Shown piece after piece: positions 41,681 through 64,000 of a DNA stretch of 64,000 bases (position 1 is the first letter of the stretch; the number at the start of each line of letters is the position of its first letter). The DNA comes from a virus: positions 47,464 to 111,463 of IMG/VR virus record IMGVR_UViG_3300049491_001102; one strand, given 5' to 3'. The position numbers were made by a program, and so were the translations under genes. The notes beneath the pieces are model-generated. The model was not told the origin of the DNA. It was given only the letters and a program-made list of their open reading frames with translations, and did no database searches.

Positions 41681-42298
41681 TTAACGACTCAAAGTTAGCG
41701 CCTGCTCGGGAGTATACCCGCGACGTCGGCGGCCTTCATACGTTGAACGAGGTATTTGTAACACGCGAAGCCAATAACTTGTAGCGCGAGTTTCACCGTT
41801 CAATGTGATCAATCTTGTTGTCCTTCTGTTTTCAGCTTGCTGTTGCTTCGTGGCCCAGCGACAGTTTGTAGGAGAATAATTCCCATTATTGTCTACTCTT
41901 TCAATAGAATAGCCAGTATCTGGTTTTCTTCCCATATCTGCTAAAAAATTTGAGTAAACGAGCCAGGACTCACAGATTTTTATTCCTCGCCCTCCGTACC
42001 GCGGATAATCTCTAGATGAAGGGTTATTACACCTGTCAAGTATATGCGACCACGATCGGTATTCACTCGTATGTTTACCCTTGCGGCTATCCCCGTGGGT
42101 TAACAACTTATTCCCACAAAGTTCACTGTGTTTGCATCCACAGCTTCTTGTGTTCCCCGTTGTTAAACTAGACCTTCTGATATTCAGTACACGACCGCAA
42201 GCACAAACACACTTGCAAGCCTTACGACCGTCATTGCTTGGCGCTTCATTTTCAAGAACCGTGAAAAACCCAAAAGTTTGCCCGACCAAATCACGCAT
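41681..42298 (-). CDS. free-standing HNH homing-type endonuclease with zinc-ribbon N-terminus
   Basis: The N-terminus GQTFGFFTVLENEAP plus CKCVCACG and SCGC forms the zinc-binding DNA-recognition domain typical of this phage HNH family. The core follows: YRSWSHILDRCNNPSSRDYP, RYGGRGIKICESWLVYSNFL, YSIERVDNNGNYSPTNCRW and ATKQQQAENRR. A C-terminal helix-turn-helix-like region reads SYWLRVLQIPRSTYEGRR. It lies 36 bases downstream of the intein-bearing terminase gene. A paralogue sits at the right window edge. Confidence 0.85.
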   Translation of the reverse strand: MRDLVGQTFGFFTVLENEAPSNDGRKACKCVCACGRVLNIRRSSLTTGNTRSCGCKHSELCGNKLLTHGDSRKGKHTSEYRSWSHILDRCNNPSSRDYPRYGGRGIKICESWLVYSNFLADMGRKPDTGYSIERVDNNGNYSPTNCRWATKQQQAENRRTTRLITLNGETRATSYWLRVLQIPRSTYEGRRRRGYTPEQALTLSR

Positions 42299-42334: not shown

Positions 42335-44932
42335 TCAGATGATAGTCAACCGACTTGGCTGTCTGCTCTTGGCCCGTTCTAACCTTGAGGCACCAAGTTG
42401 TGCCAACCATAGAGCGATTAGCCGGTCACCAGTGTGCTGGCGTCCTTCTGGAGAATAAGCCAACATTTCATCAATCAACTCAGCTACTGAGTCTTGGTGC
42501 GGCTTTAATCCTTTAGAAGGAATAATCCATTTCTTATTTGCAAACTCAGCGGCCAAGACTTCAATGCCTGTGAGTGGGTCTGCTTTCCCATTTCCAGTCG
42601 TGTACGGATAGACTGGTATTGCGGTATGCCCTTGCAAAAGCTGAACAATGTAGTCTTGACCGCCATTGTTCTCGACCATGAACAATCCACCGTACCGAGA
42701 GTGTACGTCGCGGATGTTCTTTACTATGTCATCTACTTGCCACAAACCGCCCTGAATGTTTAATAGGAACCGCTTGAAGGTTTTCCTATTAACTGCGACA
42801 GTTGCAAGTTGTGTTGTGTCTGTTGCTTTTCCTGTTGAAAGGTCAACACCGGTGATGACATCGTACCCTAGCTGTGGTGAATACTCTGCCCCTGTTATAG
42901 CTATACGAACTAATTCCGCAAGCTCCTCCATGGGCATGTCTTCGCAATCCCAGCCCATGAACTCCACCATTGAGCTGCAGTACGGAACGAAGTCGCCGGA
43001 ACGCAATGCTGTGTCAATCCAGGATTGGCGGAATGATGACATAGAGTCATCACGAACCGTGCAGTAAAGCTGCCGAGCACATTCGTACGGGTGCTGTGCA
43101 TCCAAGTCCGCTTTTTTCGTGGCGATGCGGGCTTCGGTGTAAACCTCTGGCCAACTAAGATCACCGACTCTTCGACCCCACCCGCCGCGACTTACCGGCT
43201 TTCGAATCTCGGGGAACGTCGCGATCATCTCTTTGGTGATCTTCACGGGGAAGCGATACGTGGGCCAACCGCCTCGTTCGAGGCGGTGGTAAAGGTCGTC
43301 ATTGTGCCAAGCATTGCCGAGGAAGTAGACCCACGCCTCTTCGGTAAGCCGCGAGATCAACTCCTGGTGAAACCACTCGTCCGCCTCGTCGCGCTTCTTC
43401 TTGGTGTTGGTGTTCACCGAGTCCAGAAAGTCGTCGAGAATGATGCCGTCCAGGCGCGCGCCCGAAACCGCCTTGCGGAACCCCACCGCTTGAACGGAGG
43501 GCTCCACAATCTCGCCGTCACGCTCCACGGAGAATCCAAATTTCTCTGACCACAAGTTCCCTGGGCGCAAACCGGGAAACACCGCTGGCACATCTTGGGA
43601 CCGGGCAATGTAGCCCATTTGCGTGCGCACGATCTTCACGGCCTGCTCGTGCGTTTTACTCACGATGGCCATGCGCATTCGTGGGTTCTTTCCCAACTCG
43701 TGGAGAGGAACCCCTACGGAAAACTGCTGCGTGTTGTGGGTAACCACGTAGTTTCGGCCCGCCAAATACGAATGCGTGGGCGCGTCAACGGTGATGCAGC
43801 GAACTGACGTTGGTTCCGCAGCGGTAATTCGCGTGATAACCCGAACTTCCGGACCAATAGGTTCGAAGTCTTTGCGGAATAGGTTTTTCTTCGCCTTACA
43901 TTGGAATGGGTTTTTCTCAACTTTATAAGACAAAACGCATTTTCCAGCGAAACGTCCTTCATTCGGTTGTGTCATCACAACAAGATGACCCAACGATCGA
44001 ATGAGCTCTAACATTGGCCAGGCTAAATCTGGAGTCAATGGAAGGTGGACTTTATTCACACCCCCCACAAAATCTATTGACCCCATCGAATCGCATAACC
44101 CATTAAGTAGGTCTTCGCGCTGGTCTACACTGGAAATGCAATATCTCTCCGGAACATTCTTGCGCCCGAGTATTCCTAGGTCTCTCAACCTTGTATTTAG
44201 CTTTTCTTTACCGATAGCAGCTACAAACTGTGATTTAATCGTTGAATCAGATATAGATATCTTGCTTACGCTACCATCCAAATCGCAAGCTTTAGAAAGC
44301 ATGTCAGATTGAGATAACGGACATGTGAATACAGCCCCGTCTTTATTGCCACAACCCAACCAAACACCTAAAGTGTACGGATGAATCGGCAAATCAATCG
44401 GGGCATACGCAACCGCACCACCAACTGGGATGGACCATCTACTCGGATCAAATCCTGCGACCAAATCGGCAGTTGTTAACGTTTGAAGCTCGTCGTCAAA
44501 ACCGTCGTGTACCAGCCAACGATGGTCAGCATCTGCTTCAATTTCTGTCCTATCGTGGAATTGAACACGATAGACTAGTTTATCGTGTTCAATTGGGCTC
44601 AGTGCTGTTACATGGCACTGAGCCCCAAACATATCGAATACTACGTCTCCAATATTCAGTTCGCGAAGAATCGTCCAACCTACAGATGTCGGAATCTGCG
44701 TCGTCAGTGGCAACGCTTTGCCGGCCTCAACATGGCCGATGATCACTGCTCGTTTATGTCGCCGCCGAATTTCTGTCCACAGCTCGTGCGCCATCCCTTG
44801 TTGGATTGGCTTACCCGTTCGCTGATCCTTGAGAATGAATTCCGCAAATTCGTTGTAGTCTGTCTGCGCTAGCGCAATCTTGCTTTGGCGAATCCTGGCC
44901 GCTTCCGCAATGATGTCTTCTGCCGAGCTCAC
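42335..44932 (-). CDS. large terminase subunit interrupted by an intein
   Basis: The 865-residue precursor contains terminase extein parts 1-72 and 401-865. After splicing the P-loop GHVEAGK is joined to TQQF, giving a 537-residue protein of normal length. Walker B is DGIILDDF, and the nuclease domain starts DVITGVDLSTGKATDTT. The protein packages DNA by ATP hydrolysis and cuts concatemers. The intein separates the P-loop Lys from its Thr, so the unspliced protein cannot be active and splicing is essential. Confidence 0.93.
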   Translation of the reverse strand: MSSAEDIIAEAARIRQSKIALAQTDYNEFAEFILKDQRTGKPIQQGMAHELWTEIRRRHKRAVIIGHVEAGKALPLTTQIPTSVGWTILRELNIGDVVFDMFGAQCHVTALSPIEHDKLVYRVQFHDRTEIEADADHRWLVHDGFDDELQTLTTADLVAGFDPSRWSIPVGGAVAYAPIDLPIHPYTLGVWLGCGNKDGAVFTCPLSQSDMLSKACDLDGSVSKISISDSTIKSQFVAAIGKEKLNTRLRDLGILGRKNVPERYCISSVDQREDLLNGLCDSMGSIDFVGGVNKVHLPLTPDLAWPMLELIRSLGHLVVMTQPNEGRFAGKCVLSYKVEKNPFQCKAKKNLFRKDFEPIGPEVRVITRITAAEPTSVRCITVDAPTHSYLAGRNYVVTHNTQQFSVGVPLHELGKNPRMRMAIVSKTHEQAVKIVRTQMGYIARSQDVPAVFPGLRPGNLWSEKFGFSVERDGEIVEPSVQAVGFRKAVSGARLDGIILDDFLDSVNTNTKKKRDEADEWFHQELISRLTEEAWVYFLGNAWHNDDLYHRLERGGWPTYRFPVKITKEMIATFPEIRKPVSRGGWGRRVGDLSWPEVYTEARIATKKADLDAQHPYECARQLYCTVRDDSMSSFRQSWIDTALRSGDFVPYCSSMVEFMGWDCEDMPMEELAELVRIAITGAEYSPQLGYDVITGVDLSTGKATDTTQLATVAVNRKTFKRFLLNIQGGLWQVDDIVKNIRDVHSRYGGLFMVENNGGQDYIVQLLQGHTAIPVYPYTTGNGKADPLTGIEVLAAEFANKKWIIPSKGLKPHQDSVAELIDEMLAYSPEGRQHTGDRLIALWLAQLGASRLERAKSRQPSRLTII
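43733..44716 (-). mobile_element. intein in TerL P-loop, class-3-like, with decayed LAGLIDADG domain
   Basis: The intein has 328 residues. It begins with Ala (ALPLTTQIPTSVGW), not Cys or Ser, and ends HN before extein Thr. Block B reads ADADHRWLVHDG, placing Trp after the conserved His. Block F reads SVRCITVDAPTHSYLAG, with Cys where class 3 inteins carry their nucleophile. Together with Thr+1 this gives the Trp-Cys-Thr set of class 3 inteins. The central domain has LAGLIDADG-like motifs LGVWLGCGNKDG and LLNGLCDSMGSID. The residues expected to be catalytic Asp are Cys and Met, so the endonuclease is probably dead. Confidence 0.88.
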
Positions 44933-45476: not shown

Positions 45477-46385
45477 TTAACTATGTTCTATCGCTGTATC
45501 TGGCTCTTCCAATTCATGGAGATCCGCAATTTCTTTTGCTTCCAAAACGCGCGGTGCAAGCTTGGCCAGGATTGACGCTACCACTTCGGGCGGTGTGGTG
45601 GCCTGCGCCGTCGCGGGTAACCATTGGTCCACAAGAATGCGGCGCAGGTAACCCATTTCCAGACGGTTGAACTTACCACCATACATCGATGGGTGATTGT
45701 CCATAAACGCGGCACATGCCGTGGGTGCTACGGTTTCGGCGAGGGCGAACAATGTGTGAGCGTACTCACGGATCTCTTTGAGTGCAGCTTGGTCTCGTCG
45801 TAACCCACAAAAATGCAAAAAGTTGTGTAGATCAATTTTCCACACAAAATTCGTGTAGAGGTTAACGGGCAAGCAAATCCTTGCTTGTTCGCGCGTCATC
45901 CCATTCGCTAAAGCTTCTTGATACAACTCGTAGGCAAGTTGTGAGAAGGCTAAATACTTCTGCCGATACATCTTGTTCATATCTACAGGAAGTGGGTCAC
46001 CACTTCCTTGTCGATTAACAATCGATTGCACGCGGAACTCGTCTGGAATGAAGAAGTCGTCGGGTAACTCTGAGTAACGGCCGCTCAACTCGTTGATACT
46101 CGCCGTACGGTGTCGAAACCACTCCCGAACGACGAAAAGTGGTGCAGACACGAAGAACTTCAACTCTACCATCTCAAACGGGGATGTGTGCCGATCCTCG
46201 TACAAGCGCCGCGTCAACCTCTCATCTGATGATTTCTTGGTTGTTCCTTTCTGGTACGACCTCCGGGCATCCCCGGCTACCGTTGCATCGTTGCCCATGT
46301 AATCGACGAGAGCAACAAAACCCTTGTCTAATACTCTGTACCGTCTATTTAGAATTTTCTCGGCTGCTGGTGCTTCTGGTCTCAT
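45477..46385 (-). CDS. thyX: flavin-dependent thymidylate synthase
   Basis: The 302-residue protein has the ThyX motif RHRTASINELSGRY at 91-104, preceded by HTSPFEMVELKFFVSAP and followed by the C-terminal region HNFLHFCGLRRDQAALKEIR with a conserved NHPSMYGG-type end. It converts dUMP to dTMP with FAD, NADPH and methylene-tetrahydrofolate, supplying dTTP for phage replication. The start at 46385 has AAGG seven bases upstream. The gene overlaps the upstream zinc-ribbon gene by 41 bases. Confidence 0.93.
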   Translation of the reverse strand: MRPEAPAAEKILNRRYRVLDKGFVALVDYMGNDATVAGDARRSYQKGTTKKSSDERLTRRLYEDRHTSPFEMVELKFFVSAPLFVVREWFRHRTASINELSGRYSELPDDFFIPDEFRVQSIVNRQGSGDPLPVDMNKMYRQKYLAFSQLAYELYQEALANGMTREQARICLPVNLYTNFVWKIDLHNFLHFCGLRRDQAALKEIREYAHTLFALAETVAPTACAAFMDNHPSMYGGKFNRLEMGYLRRILVDQWLPATAQATTPPEVVASILAKLAPRVLEAKEIADLHELEEPDTAIEHS

Positions 46386-46575
46386 AACATGCCTTACAAA
46401 TAGCTTTATGCTCGTAGTCTGTGTGGTGGAAGTAAAAATCAACAAACTCGTCTGCACCACATACTTCGCATTTCCGCATCCCATACAGTTTTGCCACAAC
46501 TGCAGGAATTGGAACCGGACCAGCTAGAATAACTGGCCGCGCAAAGTACATAGTTGACGAAGAGGTTCGGCACAT
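46345..46575 (-). CDS. small zinc-ribbon protein
   Basis: The 76-residue protein carries CEVCGADEFVDFYFHHTDYE and CKACYE, a clear four-Cys zinc ribbon. Its C-terminal codons overlap the thyX start. Such proteins are common in phages as DNA- or protein-binding accessory factors. The exact start (46575 or a Met eight residues later) is open. Confidence 0.6.
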   Translation of the reverse strand: MCRTSSSTMYFARPVILAGPVPIPAVVAKLYGMRKCEVCGADEFVDFYFHHTDYEHKAICKACYETRSTSSRENSK

Positions 46576-58360: not shown

Positions 58361-58510
58361 TGTTTGCTCTCCGTAGTTAATAGCTTGAGCACGAAAAAGT
58401 TCACCGCAAGATGTTGGAGAAGTTTTTCACGCTGTGTACACAAAGCGCGCAAATTAGTGCGCGCAAAAGATTACACGTGAAAAAGTTTCCACAATGTGTA
58501 CAACAAGGTT
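58361..58510. promoter_or_regulatory. divergent control region with operator-like repeats
   Basis: The stretch separates the S24-like gene from the rightward operon. It contains three A5-tract sites of related sequence: CGAAAAAGTTCAC (58392-58404), GAAGTTTTTCAC (58419-58430, inverted) and GTGAAAAAGTTTC (58477-58489). There is also the palindrome TGTGTACACA (58433-58442) with a half copy at 58495, and GCGCGC repeated on both sides of eight bases (58445-58464). Such clustering is typical of repressor operators. I see no unambiguous -10/-35 pair. Confidence 0.6.
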
Positions 58511-59158
58511 ATGGCCGCCACTACAAATAACCGTGCCGTCTGGCCGTTCTCGGAAAACTTCCCAAACTGGTACCTATCCCGGAAAGGTTATCGGCGATGT
58601 GACCCCACCAGTATTCGCAACATTTTGCAGAGTCGCCGACCATACCATCCCGTAGACCTGAAAGAGTTAATGCGTATTCTACAGATAGAATTTCACGCGT
58701 TCTTACCGGGAACACGTGGTGGAACCTTTTCTTACTGCCAAGGTGTCCGCATTGACAGCAAAGCGAACAAAGTCAAGTTGTCCTACAATTTCGCCGAAAC
58801 TGAAGATGTATCCCGCTTTGTCGTAGCTCATGGGTTGGCGCACGTGGTCGCCCACGGGCGACAGCCTGACATTCCTGTACTAAAAGATTGCCACCACATT
58901 AACTGCTATCTCCGGTGCGACCACACGGAGTTGCACGTCAGCGCGAACTGGTTTGCACGCGAGCTTCTAATCCCGAGCGATGAAGTCGTGGACATAGCTA
59001 AGCACCATGCCGAACTTCCAGGGTTTAAGTACAGCCAAGAAAGTAAACATGGTGTGTACGGGTTGGTCTCAACTTTAGTGCCAAAGATAGCCAAAATGTA
59101 CAATGTACCAACAGGGTGCGCACAAGCGGCTCTAGACCACAACATGGACAAACTATGA
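58511..59158 (+). CDS. ImmA/IrrE-like protein 1, catalytic Glu lost
   Basis: The 215-residue protein has the ImmA/IrrE domain order: GTFSYCQGVRIDSKANKVKL, then SRFVVAHGLAHVVAHG at about 101-116, then SANWFARELLIPSDEVVDIA, then the C-terminal VYGLVSTLVPKIAKMYNVP. The HExxH helix reads HGLAH, so the Glu needed for proteolysis is Gly. Active family members cleave phage or stress repressors; this one can at most bind. AAGG lies just before the ATG at 58511; a GTG 15 bases upstream is also in frame. Confidence 0.75.
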   Translation: MAATTNNRAVWPFSENFPNWYLSRKGYRRCDPTSIRNILQSRRPYHPVDLKELMRILQIEFHAFLPGTRGGTFSYCQGVRIDSKANKVKLSYNFAETEDVSRFVVAHGLAHVVAHGRQPDIPVLKDCHHINCYLRCDHTELHVSANWFARELLIPSDEVVDIAKHHAELPGFKYSQESKHGVYGLVSTLVPKIAKMYNVPTGCAQAALDHNMDKL

Positions 59159-59718
59159 GTCATAACAGTGGACCTGCCCCAAAGTGGTTCGAACTCCGAG
59201 CGCAGACTGACCCCTGCACACCACAGGATGTCCTCACATTGTGCACTCGTGACCCGGGGTCCCCAGTTCCCATCGCTGAGCTAGCAGACACCCTAAATAT
59301 CGCCGTCTACGCAACCGCGATCCGGTACCCAAGCGACATCAAGTGCATCCACTCCATTTTCGGGGTCCTGGAAGGAACCCATTACGCCGGCGTCTGCCAC
59401 CTCACCAACCACGATGCGGTCACAACCCGGCGCCACATCGCCCACGGGATTGGCCACATCTTCCGTGGGACTACGGGCATTCCCCACCTCGTACGCTGTG
59501 AGGGCGACGCCGAAACATCGCCTGCCCACCAGTTCGCACTGGGGCTGCTGATGCCCGAAGACGAGGTTCGCCAAATCATCCACATCGGCATCGAAACACA
59601 GGTCGGGGGTGCGCGCATCATCACGGAGGTGGCTCGCCGCTACGAAGTCCCACACCGGGATGCCCAACTCCATGTCTTCAACCTACTGACCCGCTGGTTT
59701 TCCGATGCCAAAGTGTAA
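59155..59718 (+). CDS. ImmA/IrrE-like protein 2, catalytic Glu lost
   Basis: The 187-residue protein is a diverged paralogue of the gene before it. It shows YAGVCHLTNHDAVTTRRHI, then AHGIGHIFRG with HGIGH at 97-101 in place of HExxH, then SPAHQFALGLLMPEDEVRQI and the end ITEVARRYEVPHRDAQLHVF. Its start overlaps the upstream stop by ATGA. The DNA is visibly more GC-rich than both neighbours, as if it had a separate history. It leads directly into the tandem array. Confidence 0.75.
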   Translation: MSHNSGPAPKWFELRAQTDPCTPQDVLTLCTRDPGSPVPIAELADTLNIAVYATAIRYPSDIKCIHSIFGVLEGTHYAGVCHLTNHDAVTTRRHIAHGIGHIFRGTTGIPHLVRCEGDAETSPAHQFALGLLMPEDEVRQIIHIGIETQVGGARIITEVARRYEVPHRDAQLHVFNLLTRWFSDAKV

Positions 59719-60025
59719 ACCATGTATGTACGTCGTGTGCTGTGACACGGTTGGACAAATCGGTGTTCTTAGACCGTGGGGAGAATTTTCGCAGATTAAA
59801 AAGCACAAGATACGACTGTTCCGAAAACAGGAAGCAGTGGCAGAAGCAGTGAGACAGTCTATGGGTGTACTGGCGGCGTTTCAACCATTCTATGTTCGCC
59901 GTGTGCGACGTTCCGAGCGAAAACAGCATAAACAGGCATTAGACGGACGTATGCCATTTTCAAACTTTACACCTGCGCTACAATCCGACGTAGTAATAAG
60001 AGTTATTCACATACGTGAAGATTGA
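59705..60025 (+). CDS. array paralogue 1
   Basis: The 106-residue protein starts with strands MYVVCCDTVGQIGVLRPWG. The family helix is RLFRKQEAVAEAVRQSM and the closing strand is FYVRRVRR. A basic tail of about 35 residues follows. The start lies 14 bases inside the ImmA-like gene, so the array belongs to that operon. Unlike most copies it has a CxxC pair at its N-terminus (KCKPC). Confidence 0.75.
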   Translation: MPKCKPCMYVVCCDTVGQIGVLRPWGEFSQIKKHKIRLFRKQEAVAEAVRQSMGVLAAFQPFYVRRVRRSERKQHKQALDGRMPFSNFTPALQSDVVIRVIHIRED

Positions 60026-60028
60026 AAC

Positions 60029-60451
60029 ATGTCCAAACGTAAACAGCCACTATACGTTGTCTGCTTTGAGTTGGCAGACGGAACCATCTCTACTCTTAAA
60101 ACACACGGAGGATTTGCTATTAGCAATGTTTACCCAGAATTGTTCCTACACAAAGAGGAAGCCGAAGCAGAAACTGTTCGATTCGCACTCGTGAACGCGG
60201 GTAAGGGTAAGTTCTATACACGTCGCACGCACAAACGTGGGGACCAAACACCACGCAAACCTATTCCTGCACTTGAATCGCAAGGATCTGGCATCAAATG
60301 TGCGCGTATAGATCTGCTCATAATGGACGATAAAATCGACAACAAACTGCCGAGGGCCTTAGCTAAGCATATAAACATGATGTCTGTGTACGCGGTAAAA
60401 CCTGGAGATATCATAAAAATTCTTCCTAAAACCATTGTCCATGAAGACTAG
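60029..60451 (+). CDS. array paralogue 2, long C-terminal extension
   Basis: At 140 residues this is the longest member. The core is LYVVCFELADGTISTLKTHG, LFLHKEEAEAETVRFAL and FYTRRTHKR. An extra tail of about 65 residues (IKCARIDLLIMDDKIDNKLP) has an alpha/beta pattern not shared by the others and may be an effector or partner-binding part. Confidence 0.75.
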   Translation: MSKRKQPLYVVCFELADGTISTLKTHGGFAISNVYPELFLHKEEAEAETVRFALVNAGKGKFYTRRTHKRGDQTPRKPIPALESQGSGIKCARIDLLIMDDKIDNKLPRALAKHINMMSVYAVKPGDIIKILPKTIVHED

Positions 60452-60671
60452 GAGAAATCCTCTTTTTACCGTTAACTGCACGTGGAGAAACCAAGACTAC
60501 GTTCTCCACATTAACGGACACTTTACACAATTTGGCAGTGGCCAACTATTTCATACGCGTGAAGAGGCGACAGCACGACTTGTTGCTGTCGCGCTAACCA
60601 GGGATTCCAACGAAGGTGAACTCTACGTAAAAGAGGTCACAAAGCCAAAGAGACGAAATGACAGACCCTAA
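60441..60671 (+). CDS. array paralogue 3
   Basis: The 76-residue protein is nearly a pure core: LFTVNCTWRNQDYVLHINGH, LFHTREEATARLVAVAL and LYVKEVTKPKRRN. The ATG at 60441 overlaps the previous gene by 11 bases; an in-frame TTG lies six bases upstream. Confidence 0.73.
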   Translation: MKTRRNPLFTVNCTWRNQDYVLHINGHFTQFGSGQLFHTREEATARLVAVALTRDSNEGELYVKEVTKPKRRNDRP

Positions 60672-60918
60672 CGGATCAGGAAGCTTCTATGCCATATATC
60701 TCATATGGCAAGATACAGCGCTTGTACTGTGCAAAGACGGAAAATGGATGCCGGAAACTTTTGATAAAAGACTGTTCTACAACCGTGAAGAAGCGGTTGC
60801 AGAAACCGTCCGCCAAACGATGGCATCTGATATGACAAACAAAAAGTTCATCATTCGTAAAGTTGCCAGTGCCGAGCTACCAGTTGGTATTAATCCTGCA
60901 CTATGGAAGCAAACGTAA
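60658..60918 (+). CDS. array paralogue 4
   Basis: The 86-residue protein shows FYAIYLIWQDTALVLCKDG, RLFYNREEAVAETVRQTM and KFIIRKVASAEL. The start lies 14 bases inside paralogue 3. Confidence 0.75.
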   Translation: MTDPNGSGSFYAIYLIWQDTALVLCKDGKWMPETFDKRLFYNREEAVAETVRQTMASDMTNKKFIIRKVASAELPVGINPALWKQT

Positions 60919-61130
60919 AATATGTCATTTGTTACGAAATTGACAGTATGGAGCACGTACTAAGCTCTACCGGACGATTTGTCATCGCCAGTCCATATAT
61001 ACTGATTTTTAACAATGAAGATAGCGCACAAACTGAACTCATCCGAATAGTACTAGCGACCGGCACAACAGAAGGGTGTCAGTTCTACGTGCGCAAAGCT
61101 ACAGAGGATGAAATTCATGGTCGGTGCTAA
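60903..61130 (+). CDS. array paralogue 5
   Basis: The 75-residue protein shows YVICYEIDSMEHVLSSTGRF, LIFNNEDSAQTELIRIVL and FYVRKATEDEI. It is among the more diverged helices (ED-x-A in place of EEA). The start lies 16 bases inside paralogue 4. Confidence 0.73.
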   Translation: MEANVKYVICYEIDSMEHVLSSTGRFVIASPYILIFNNEDSAQTELIRIVLATGTTEGCQFYVRKATEDEIHGRC

Positions 61131-61504
61131 GCCAAAAGACCGTAACAGACTGGGTGACCGCCCGCGCTGAGAACTCTCCCCCAAAAATCACAACCATGAC
61201 CGGCATCCATCCAGACACAGAGTTCTACGTCGTTCGCTACATCGTCAGCACGGACAAATACCCTGGCAATCCCTTTGAGCTCTGCCAAAACGGGGAGTTC
61301 TACAGCGTAACCGAAGCCATTCGACCCATGGACGCCTCCGGTCGATTCGTTCAGATCTTCGACACTGAAGAAGAGGCCCTTGCGGTCATTGTTCGCTTTG
61401 TGCTCACCAACCCACCAGTTCCCGGCAAGAAGTTCTTCACCCACAAAGTCCGCTGGGGTGACATCACTGGTGAGCCTACAACCCCGCGCTTCCCTTTCGG
61501 CTAG
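61124..61504 (+). CDS. array paralogue 6, longer inter-strand loop
   Basis: The core is FYVVRYIVSTDKYPGNPFEL, QIFDTEEEALAVIVRFVL and FFTHKVRWGDITG. The loop before the helix is about 15 residues longer than in other copies. A GTG at 61124 overlaps the previous stop, but the ATG at 61196 (MTGIHPDTEF) matches the N-termini of the other members better, giving 102 residues. Its DNA is GC-richer than that of paralogues 1-5. Confidence 0.7.
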   Translation: MLSQKTVTDWVTARAENSPPKITTMTGIHPDTEFYVVRYIVSTDKYPGNPFELCQNGEFYSVTEAIRPMDASGRFVQIFDTEEEALAVIVRFVLTNPPVPGKKFFTHKVRWGDITGEPTTPRFPFG

Positions 61505-61571
61505 ATAACTAAAAATAGATGACCCAAACGATACGTTGATTCCGTTCCCGTTGACGAATTGTGGAATCCAA

Positions 61572-61925
61572 ATGGCGAGTCTTAAATCAGAACGAGAACT
61601 CTTCGTCGTGCGAGGCCGAATAGCCGCCAATACCGTGGTACTGCACAACGATGGGAAATTTTATCGACCTAGCCCGCGCGCTCGAATTTTCTTTACGCTA
61701 GAAGATGCAACTGCTGAACTTGTTCGGGAAGCATTAACTAACACATGCGGTCTGTACGAGGATCTACAGGTCTACCAAACAACCGTAGTGGAAATCTCAA
61801 GTTGGGCACAATCCCCACACGAGTCCACTACCATCGAGTACATAGAAGGTGGACCGATAAAGCCGCGCAAAATCGACATCGATATGGAACAGTGGGATCC
61901 ACTTAGGTGCCCTGTATATGAATGA
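61572..61925 (+). CDS. array paralogue 7, C-terminal extension
   Basis: The 117-residue protein shows LFVVRGRIAANTVVLHNDG, RIFFTLEDATAELVREAL and a diverged last strand. A tail of about 50 residues follows (TIEYIEGGPIKPRKIDIDME). A 67-base gap precedes it, one of only two gaps of note in the array. Confidence 0.75.
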   Translation: MASLKSERELFVVRGRIAANTVVLHNDGKFYRPSPRARIFFTLEDATAELVREALTNTCGLYEDLQVYQTTVVEISSWAQSPHESTTIEYIEGGPIKPRKIDIDMEQWDPLRCPVYE

Positions 61926-62175
61926 ACAGATCTTTGTTGTCTGCTGCGTTAATGAACAACTCGTACTTGAACTGGCGACCAACGGACACTTTTACGAGCC
62001 AAGTCAACACGCCAGACGGTTCCGTACCCACGAGGAGGCAACGGCAGAACTTGTCCGGCAAGTCCTTAGATGCGAACCGATCGGGTTCAAGTTTTTCGTG
62101 CAAATGCTAACCCTGCAAGAAATCCTTGGTCGTATCACGGCGACGAACCATCCCCCCAATAACGTCTGCCAATGA
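61918..62175 (+). CDS. array paralogue 8
   Basis: The 85-residue protein shows IFVVCCVNEQLVLELATNG, RRFRTHEEATAELVRQVL and KFFVQMLTLQEILG. It overlaps paralogue 7 by eight bases. Confidence 0.75.
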   Translation: MNEQIFVVCCVNEQLVLELATNGHFYEPSQHARRFRTHEEATAELVRQVLRCEPIGFKFFVQMLTLQEILGRITATNHPPNNVCQ

Positions 62176-62453
62176 CGACACCAACCACAACTCCTAAGTT
62201 CTTCGTGGTGCGCTACAACATTCGCCGCGTTTATTTTGAGCTCGCCGTCGACGATACATTCCGCGCTCCGGGTAAAAACTCAAGACGCTTTGATACTGAA
62301 GAAGAGGCCACGGCAGCACTTGTTCGTCATGCACTCGCAAACCCTAATGTGACTGACAAGAAGTATTACGTGCACCAACCAGGACACCCCGAATACATCC
62401 GCGTCTACGACCCATGGTTTCCAACCGCAACCAAATCACCAAATAACCCATGA
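62172..62453 (+). CDS. array paralogue 9
   Basis: The 93-residue protein shows FFVVRYNIRRVYFELAVDD, RRFDTEEEATAALVRHAL and KYYVHQPGHPEYI, with a Pro-rich tail. ATGA overlap joins it to paralogue 8. Confidence 0.75.
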   Translation: MTTPTTTPKFFVVRYNIRRVYFELAVDDTFRAPGKNSRRFDTEEEATAALVRHALANPNVTDKKYYVHQPGHPEYIRVYDPWFPTATKSPNNP

Positions 62454-62716
62454 CCTACCACTCCACGGTGACAAAGCGCTTGATCGTGTGCGCGACCGTA
62501 TCTCGCAAAACGTACATTCTCGACAAAGACGGACAGTTCGGCCCAACAAGTGCATCCGCCAAGATTTTCCTGGATGAAGAAGAAGCAAAGGCAGAACTCG
62601 TCCGCCAGTCCCTCATCACCTGGACACCACACGCCCAATTCTATCTCCGAACCATCGATATAAACGCGCACTTCTTTCTTCTCGCGCAGGCAAAAGATGA
62701 CGACCCCAAACCCTGA
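62450..62716 (+). CDS. array paralogue 10
   Basis: The 88-residue protein shows LIVCATVSRKTYILDKDGQF, KIFLDEEEAKAELVRQSL and FYLRTIDINAHFF. ATGA overlap joins it to paralogue 9. Confidence 0.75.
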   Translation: MTYHSTVTKRLIVCATVSRKTYILDKDGQFGPTSASAKIFLDEEEAKAELVRQSLITWTPHAQFYLRTIDINAHFFLLAQAKDDDPKP

Positions 62717-62954
62717 CGATCGCATCTTTGTTCTACACGTCGAGTGGCAGGGCAATGTCCTAAAGGACGATACGTCCACCCCGGTATTCGAAACGGAAGA
62801 CGAAGCGATGGCCGAACTCGTGAGGCTATCCCTCCATTGGAACACACCAGACATTAAGTTCTCGCTGCACACCATCCGCCGCGAAGACTATTGCCCAAAA
62901 ACTATTGAGCAAATCCTTTGCCCACCCGGGATGACCACCGATGACGACACGTGA
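62697..62954 (+). CDS. array paralogue 11, shortened middle
   Basis: The 85-residue protein shows IFVLHVEWQGNVLKDD followed almost directly by PVFETEDEAMAELVRLSL. The usual G-x-F loop is therefore missing. The last strand is KFSLHTIRREDY. It overlaps paralogue 10 by 20 bases. Confidence 0.73.
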   Translation: MTTPNPDDRIFVLHVEWQGNVLKDDTSTPVFETEDEAMAELVRLSLHWNTPDIKFSLHTIRREDYCPKTIEQILCPPGMTTDDDT

Positions 62955-63165
62955 CCTGGATGAGCGTGCGTTCGTGATTCGGATGGACGTGCGTGGCGAA
63001 ATCCTTGAACTCGATGACGAAAACGAGTTCTTCGAGCCAAGTCCGTTCGCGCAGCTTTTTGATACCGAAGATGAAGCAACCGCAGAAGTTGTTCGCCTCA
63101 TCCTCGACTGGGCAACCCCAGATATTCGGATTTACGTGCACCCCGTCCGCCTCAAAGACTACTAA
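62941..63165 (+). CDS. array paralogue 12
   Basis: The 74-residue protein is a minimal core: AFVIRMDVRGEILELDDEN, QLFDTEDEATAEVVRLIL and RIYVHPVRLKDY. It is closest to paralogues 11 and 13, suggesting a recent local duplication. It overlaps paralogue 11 by 14 bases. Confidence 0.75.
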   Translation: MTTRDLDERAFVIRMDVRGEILELDDENEFFEPSPFAQLFDTEDEATAEVVRLILDWATPDIRIYVHPVRLKDY

Positions 63166-63198: not shown

Positions 63199-63444
63199 AT
63201 GACAGCCCAAAACCATAACGAGCAGGCATTCGTGATCTGCATGGAAATACGCGATATTATATACATGTTTAATACGGATGACTATTACTCCTTTCCTGGA
63301 CCTACTACACGTATTTTCAGCACTGAAGATGAAGCAACCGCGGAAACCGTCCGCTTACTATTTCAGTGCACAACCCCAAACACCAAGATTTACGTGCACC
63401 CGGTTTCTCGCAGTCAATATTTGCACTGGGGCGTCACCCAGTGA
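63199..63444 (+). CDS. array paralogue 13
   Basis: The 81-residue protein shows AFVICMEIRDIIYMFNTDD, RIFSTEDEATAETVRLLF and KIYVHPVSRSQYL. A 33-base gap separates it from paralogue 12, with which it shares the T-E-D-E-A-T-A-E block and the I-Y-V-H-P-V strand. Its end converges on the HNH gene with a 31-base overlap. Confidence 0.75.
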   Translation: MTAQNHNEQAFVICMEIRDIIYMFNTDDYYSFPGPTTRIFSTEDEATAETVRLLFQCTTPNTKIYVHPVSRSQYLHWGVTQ

Positions 63445-64000
63445 ACGTTCCCCGGCTCCCACGGCGCGGCCGAATCTAATCTTCGTAGTCTTGCGCGCTT
63501 GTCGCTTTTGCGCCCCAAGCAGTGCAAGAAATCCCGGAAATCTTCCCAGCTCTCGTCGACCCGCAAGTGCACCGGCCATTCCCATATTGGGGGGATCGTG
63601 CACCCCGGGCCAAACCACTCGCGAACCCCCGCGTTCGCCCGCGCCCACATATTCTTCCACGCCCGATACTCGCTCGACCCCCCGTCGCTCCCAACATGCT
63701 CCCCATGCTTGGTGAGCCACACCTTCGGCACCAACGCCGCCGCCCGATAGCGTAACCGACACCCACAACACGTCCTCGCCCCACTCAACAGGTGGTCCCT
63801 CCGGGCGAATGTCTCCTGCCCGCAGTCGCAGATGCATCGCCAAACTCGGCTTCGCCGAACGACGGCGGCTGTCGCCGCGAAGGCGGTCAAGTAGCCGAAC
63901 TGCTCGCCGGTGATGTCGCGATTGCGCAGGTGGTACGGGAGCGGGAGTCGTGGCGGTGGCTTTGGCTTGGCAGGGGTGGTGGCTGTTGTTGGTAATGAGG
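63414..64000 (-). CDS. second HNH-type endonuclease, 5' end beyond window (partial)
   Basis: The frame is open to the right edge, so the start lies outside. Visible are a Pro-rich stretch and DITGEQFGYLTAFAA, the same opening as the HNH protein at 41681. The zinc cluster CICDCGQ plus CCGC follows, and then SSEYRAWKNMWARANAGVRE, RVDESWEDFRDFLHCLG and a diverged end NVHWVTPQCKY. The His/Asn residues of the core are less well conserved than in the first copy, so activity is uncertain. It converges on the tandem array. Confidence 0.7.
   Translation of the reverse strand, partial: SLPTTATTPAKPKPPPRLPLPYHLRNRDITGEQFGYLTAFAATAAVVRRSRVWRCICDCGQETFARRDHLLSGARTCCGCRLRYRAAALVPKVWLTKHGEHVGSDGGSSEYRAWKNMWARANAGVREWFGPGCTIPPIWEWPVHLRVDESWEDFRDFLHCLGRKSDKRARLRRLDSAAPWEPGNVHWVTPQCKY

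Follow-up and report, generated by a model that had tools for sequence, protein, structure and literature searches.

A divergent class 3 intein with a degenerate LAGLIDADG endonuclease in the Walker A motif of a phage terminase

The large terminase gene of a tailed phage is interrupted by an insert whose residues and kinship identify it as a genuine class 3 intein. In the most probable reading (roughly 0.9), this full-length class 3 intein lies at the TerL1-a K/T site, its splicing would restore the terminase, and it has kept the fold of its endonuclease and no longer homes. The evidence comes from the position of the insert, its residues, its homology, its predicted fold and the biased divergence of its endonuclease domain. 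Splicing itself is expected by analogy with characterised class 3 inteins, the need for splicing before packaging is deduced from the insertion site, and the endonuclease is presumed inactive from its residues and divergence.

The DNA analysed, here called the window, is a stretch of 64,000 nucleotides from a 111,463-base IMG/VR virus record (IMGVR_UViG_3300049491_001102). Tailed-phage genes in the record include those for tail sheath, portal and head. The terminase precursor consists of an N-extein of 72 residues, the intein of 328 residues and a C-extein of 465 residues (Table 1). Apart from its PHROG match, it matches the NCBIfam model termin_lrg_T7 with E=2.5e-18, which is under that model's curated cut-off.

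Table 1. Features of the terminase locus (positions in the window)
Feature	Position	Strand	Remarks
Terminase large subunit precursor	42335..44932	-	865 aa, GTG start; phrog_38 E=1.7e-46
N-extein	44717..44932	-	final residues are the Walker A sequence GHVEAGK
Class 3 intein	43733..44716	-	328 aa, Ala1 to Asn328, precursor residues 73-400
Splicing (HINT) domain, N-terminal half	44504..44716	-	approximately residues 1-71; block A Ala1, block B ADADHRW
LAGLIDADG endonuclease domain	43862..44401	-	approximately residues 106-285; predicted fold intact, catalytically degenerate
First LAGLIDADG motif, WLGCG	44348..44362	-	Cys122 (TGT) in the catalytic Asp place
Second LAGLIDADG motif, DSMGS	44078..44092	-	Met211 (ATG) in the catalytic Asp place
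Splicing domain, C-terminal half	43733..43843	-	residues 292-328; blocks F and G
C-extein	42335..43732	-	opens with Thr+1 (Walker A second half), then the remaining ATPase and the nuclease
Free-standing HNH homing-endonuclease-like gene	41681..42298	-	phrog_374 HNH endonuclease E=1.5e-62

An intein-free homologue is found in the TerL of Weizmannia phage Youna2. Its Walker A motif is unbroken at the place of the intein (...IEHGKST...), and the two terminases can also be aligned in the Walker B region (GARLDVIICDDILD in Youna2, GARLDGIILDDFLD in the window). This is the nearest intein-free homologue found, and it is only 23.5% identical over the C-extein. Pattern scans of IMG/VR with the intein alone and with the C-extein alone confirmed no close relatives, and the host phage has none in the collections searched.

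The reading frame of the intein is open from end to end. The first codon, GCG for Ala1, lies at 44714-44716, and the last, AAC for Asn328, at 43733-43735. The boundaries given in the original prediction, made from the DNA letters, proved to be exact, and the Walker A motif is split as it had described, between Lys (K72) and Thr (GHVEAGK/T). The G+C content of the intein is 46.5%, compared with 53.2% in the exteins, which is compatible with an acquired element.

Class 3 inteins are defined by Trp at B:12, Cys at F:4 and Thr at G:5; they have Ser or Thr at the +1 position (G:8) and do not need a nucleophile at position 1 (PMC5222942, PMC5050341). The window intein begins with Ala1 rather than with a Cys, Ser or Thr nucleophile. 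Block B provides Asp62, His65 and Trp67 (B:12), with DHRW at 44516-44527, while block F, VRCITVD at 43784-43804, holds the nucleophile Cys307 (F:4). Block G is THN (Thr326 at G:5, His327 and Asn328), and the +1 residue is Thr. The initial Ala, the block B Trp and the block F Cys had all been recognised correctly. A Trp-Cys-Thr set had also been proposed, and all three residues are present, but its Thr had been taken to be the +1 extein residue, and here the prediction was wrong. The Thr that defines class 3 is at G:5, and here this is Thr326, a residue of the intein itself; at +1, roughly half of the aligned sequences have Ser (Ser 92 and Thr 86 of 181 rows, including the window).

The alignment comprises the window intein and 180 relatives, which come from phages, from viral contigs or from the genomes of bacteria. 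Three residues are invariant among the relatives, namely His B10, Cys F4 and Asn G7 (180/180 each). Trp B12 and Thr G5 are each present in 178 of 180, and Ala at position 1 in 120 of 180. The terminal branch of the window intein in the intein tree is long (1.95 vs a median of 0.54), which makes its placement there uncertain. A separate observation concerns the intein at 235-1257 of the Vibrio phage D128 locus (L014). This is of class 3 type, with the block F Cys and the THN end, and has Asn in place of Trp at B:12 (HINIV). It is a possible natural test of the need for this Trp.

Kinship with other inteins, class 3 members among them, is also seen in database searches, at levels well above chance. 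In a phmmer search of solved structures the best matches are DnaB1 inteins of class 3: 6rix from M. chimaera, with E=2e-15, and 6bs8 from M. smegmatis, with E=1e-12. The alignments with 6rix, 6riy and 6bs8 (E=2e-15 to 1e-12) span both halves of the splicing domain. A tblastn search with the intein matches 487 phage records, 485 of them with at least 80% query cover. Among the matching records, L002, L008, L010, L015, L019 and others carry class 3 inteins at a terminase GK/T or GK/S site. The intein matches a profile with E=6e-94, and a profile search of the same record found no further class 3 inteins. Pfam gives no match to the intein at its cut-off; the best, Intein_splicing, scores 14.3 bits vs the 35.8 needed.

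The structure of the intein was predicted with AlphaFold2 (mean pLDDT 92.1, pTM 0.91). The best Foldseek match of the model is PI-SceI (1vde, E=1.9e-17), which it resembles over its whole length. PI-SceI, which belongs to class 1 and whose endonuclease is active, has the same overall architecture, a HINT splicing domain combined with a LAGLIDADG endonuclease (1vde and 1jva, TMq up to 0.79). Class 3 DnaB inteins match the splicing domain of the model, with a TM of 0.80-0.87 by target length. What had been called a class-3-like intein is thus upheld as class 3 by the alignment, the solved structures and the confident model; the active-site residues match those of class 3 members, and the arrangement of nucleophiles is theirs and no different one. 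A LAGLIDADG fold is likewise predicted to be present. A second set of endonuclease motifs was sought in the insert and not found, the only motif helices in the model being 113-122 and 197-211.

LAGLIDADG enzymes have a catalytic acid at these two motif positions. The first is Asp in 160 and Asn in 14 of the 180 relatives, and Cys122 in the window; the second is Asp in 173 of 180, and Met211 in the window. The acid that closes each LAGLIDADG helix in active enzymes is therefore missing from both helices, as had been predicted. Going from an Asp codon to TGT takes at least two base changes and to ATG at least three, or at least five together. A single sequencing error or a recent point mutation therefore explains neither residue. 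Loss of both acids is seen in only three of the relatives: the inteins of Vibrio phage USC-1 TerL (L018), a Streptomyces (L126) and a Geodermatophilus (L180). The patterns used to collect the relatives included parts of intact LAGLIDADG motifs, so the number of dead endonucleases among them is an underestimate.

The divergence of the intein is concentrated in the endonuclease domain. Of the columns conserved in 90% or more of the relatives, the window intein keeps all 17 in the splicing domain and has lost 3 of 27 in the endonuclease. Besides the two catalytic positions, otherwise conserved endonuclease residues are changed in D136Q and R275A, while the conserved Lys186 is kept. Mean identity to the relatives is 0.42 for the splicing domain, with 23 of 178 rows as low, and 0.29 for the endonuclease domain, with only 1 of 178 as low. 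In its ratio of endonuclease to splicing identity the window intein ranks fourth from the bottom among 179; the second catalytic acid is also missing from all three rows below it (L129, L126 and L173). Such a bias would be the pattern expected from relaxed selection on the endonuclease alone.

From these residues, the endonuclease is very probably catalytically dead, which bears out the original prediction; residual nicking by the domain may occur. One alternative is that the endonuclease is divergent and yet active by means of other residues. The fold, confidently predicted to be intact, and the retained Lys186 agree with this. Two non-acidic catalytic positions, the changes D136Q and R275A, and drift across the whole domain count against it, and it is very improbable.

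The proposed splicing of the precursor is modelled on characterised class 3 inteins (PMC5222942, PMC6195587, PMC7664689). After translation, Cys307, placed with His65 and Trp67, would attack the peptide bond between Lys72 and Ala1 to form the branched thioester of class 3 inteins. The N-extein would then pass to Thr+1. Next, Asn328 would cyclise with the assistance of His327, freeing the intein. Finally, an acyl shift would link ...GHVEAGK to TQQF..., so that GHVEAGKT is whole again and the packaging ATPase active. The insertion site suggests that packaging depends on splicing. The endonuclease domain would have kept its fold and, with the loss of both catalytic acids, have ended its homing. 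As the endonuclease half lacks both catalytic residues, the intein most likely survives by self-excision alone. It would persist because any inexact deletion would damage a motif that is essential, and it is probably no longer mobile but fixed at its site, since only exact removal restores Walker A.

One residue of the splicing domain raises doubt about its efficiency. Position 48 is Val in the window and Cys in 142 of 178 relatives. In M. smegmatis DnaB1, Cys48 and the catalytic Cys form a disulfide that is inhibitory, and splicing was abolished by each of the seven replacements tested at this position, Val not among them (PMC6195587). With Val48, a redox switch of this type is impossible in the window intein, and the effect of these substitutions leaves its splicing efficiency less than certain, although other relatives have Ala, Ser, Thr, Met or Leu at this place. 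As an alternative, the intein might be intact in sequence and splice slowly or deficiently, in which case the terminase would be made conditionally or the phage would be impaired. The unusual Val48 and the long terminal branch speak for this. It is nevertheless improbable: the 17 most conserved splicing-domain columns are all kept, and the extein frame and the terminase motifs are intact, as continuing selection for splicing predicts. If the intein splices, the surroundings of position 48 must tolerate Val, and the intein could offer a natural test of the need for Cys48 in splicing.

A further alternative leaves the class 3 assignment standing and competes only with the view that the intein is no longer mobile. 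Here the adjacent HNH enzyme would cut intein-free terminase genes near the P-loop, carrying the endonuclease-dead intein along in trans. The HNH gene of the phrog_374 family, which has matches in 1083 phage records, begins 36 bp downstream of the terminase stop, and phage ICP1 provides a precedent, the collaborative homing of a terminase intron with a neighbouring endonuclease gene (PMC10448857). Endonuclease genes are, however, common near terminases even where there is no intein (PMC10448857). Among the fetched loci, a similar HNH gene accompanies an intein at one other distinct locus (L096 and L100, with identical inteins), which leaves the association unsupported, and no annotated HNH gene was found in the 6.9 kb fetched around the doubly dead USC-1 intein. 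Mobility in trans is thus unlikely, at a few chances in a hundred. If true, it would mean that the mobility of a class 3 intein had been handed to the HNH enzyme, leaving the dead LAGLIDADG domain as a structural insert only, and that collaborative homing extends to an intein, not an intron. A second HNH gene of the same family lies at 63414-63890 on the minus strand and is 31% identical to the first. Its match crosses an in-frame TGA, and it looks truncated.

The fixed intein of the preferred reading has several counterparts. Its insertion site in phages is known as TerL1-a, and Kelley et al. (2016, PMC5050341) described both this site and the occurrence of class 3 inteins in phage terminases. 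Examples are the TerL1-a inteins of mycobacteriophages, such as that of Icee TerL (L008). These share with the window intein the large terminase, the Walker A Lys/Thr site, the Trp-Cys-Thr residues and a LAGLIDADG insert; the Icee intein is approximately 30% identical and, unlike the window intein, retains WLGDG and DTDG, and the host terminase of the window intein is only remotely related.

The DnaB1 inteins of M. smegmatis and M. chimaera (6bs8, 6rix and 6riy) have Ala1, His65 and Trp67 at the same numbers as the window intein, together with the block F Cys and the THN end. Asp62 also has the same number in M. smegmatis DnaB1, whose intein is likewise inserted in a P-loop. The DnaB1 inteins differ in being mini-inteins without an endonuclease, in having a helicase host and in having Ser at +1; M. 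smegmatis DnaB1 also has the regulatory Cys48. Its linker has been read as an endonuclease remnant (PMC6195587), and endonuclease loss in class 3 inteins, up to complete loss of the domain, is already known.

The closest parallel in decay is the USC-1 terminase intein, a class 3 intein at the TerL K/T site with Gly and Arg for the two acids. It has 293 residues compared with 328 in the window intein and is 26% identical to it, and the two endonucleases likely degenerated independently. Together with USC-1 and the actinobacterial cases, the window intein suggests that in class 3 inteins catalysis is lost before the endonuclease domain. The site, the class and the loss of the endonuclease have thus all been described before, and the window intein is a new, divergent example. 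It clearly illustrates the decay half of the homing cycle for a class 3 intein: the splicing residues are untouched, endonuclease catalysis is very probably gone and the predicted fold is still there.

Other genes of the window were noted in passing. Upstream of the terminase gene, on the minus strand at 45477-46499, lies a gene for a ThyX-type thymidylate synthase (Pfam Thy1, E=2.3e-48). At 59705-63000, on the plus strand, short and mutually similar ORFs follow in a row with a shared pattern like FFVVR...DDTFR...FDTEEEATAALVRHAL; they are apparently a tandem family of paralogues, with no function assigned. Next to them, the adjacent plus-strand ORFs 58496-59158 and 59116-59718 have similar His-rich motifs (VAHGLAHVVAHG and IAHGIGHIFRG) and look as if a metallopeptidase-like gene had been duplicated and perhaps altered.
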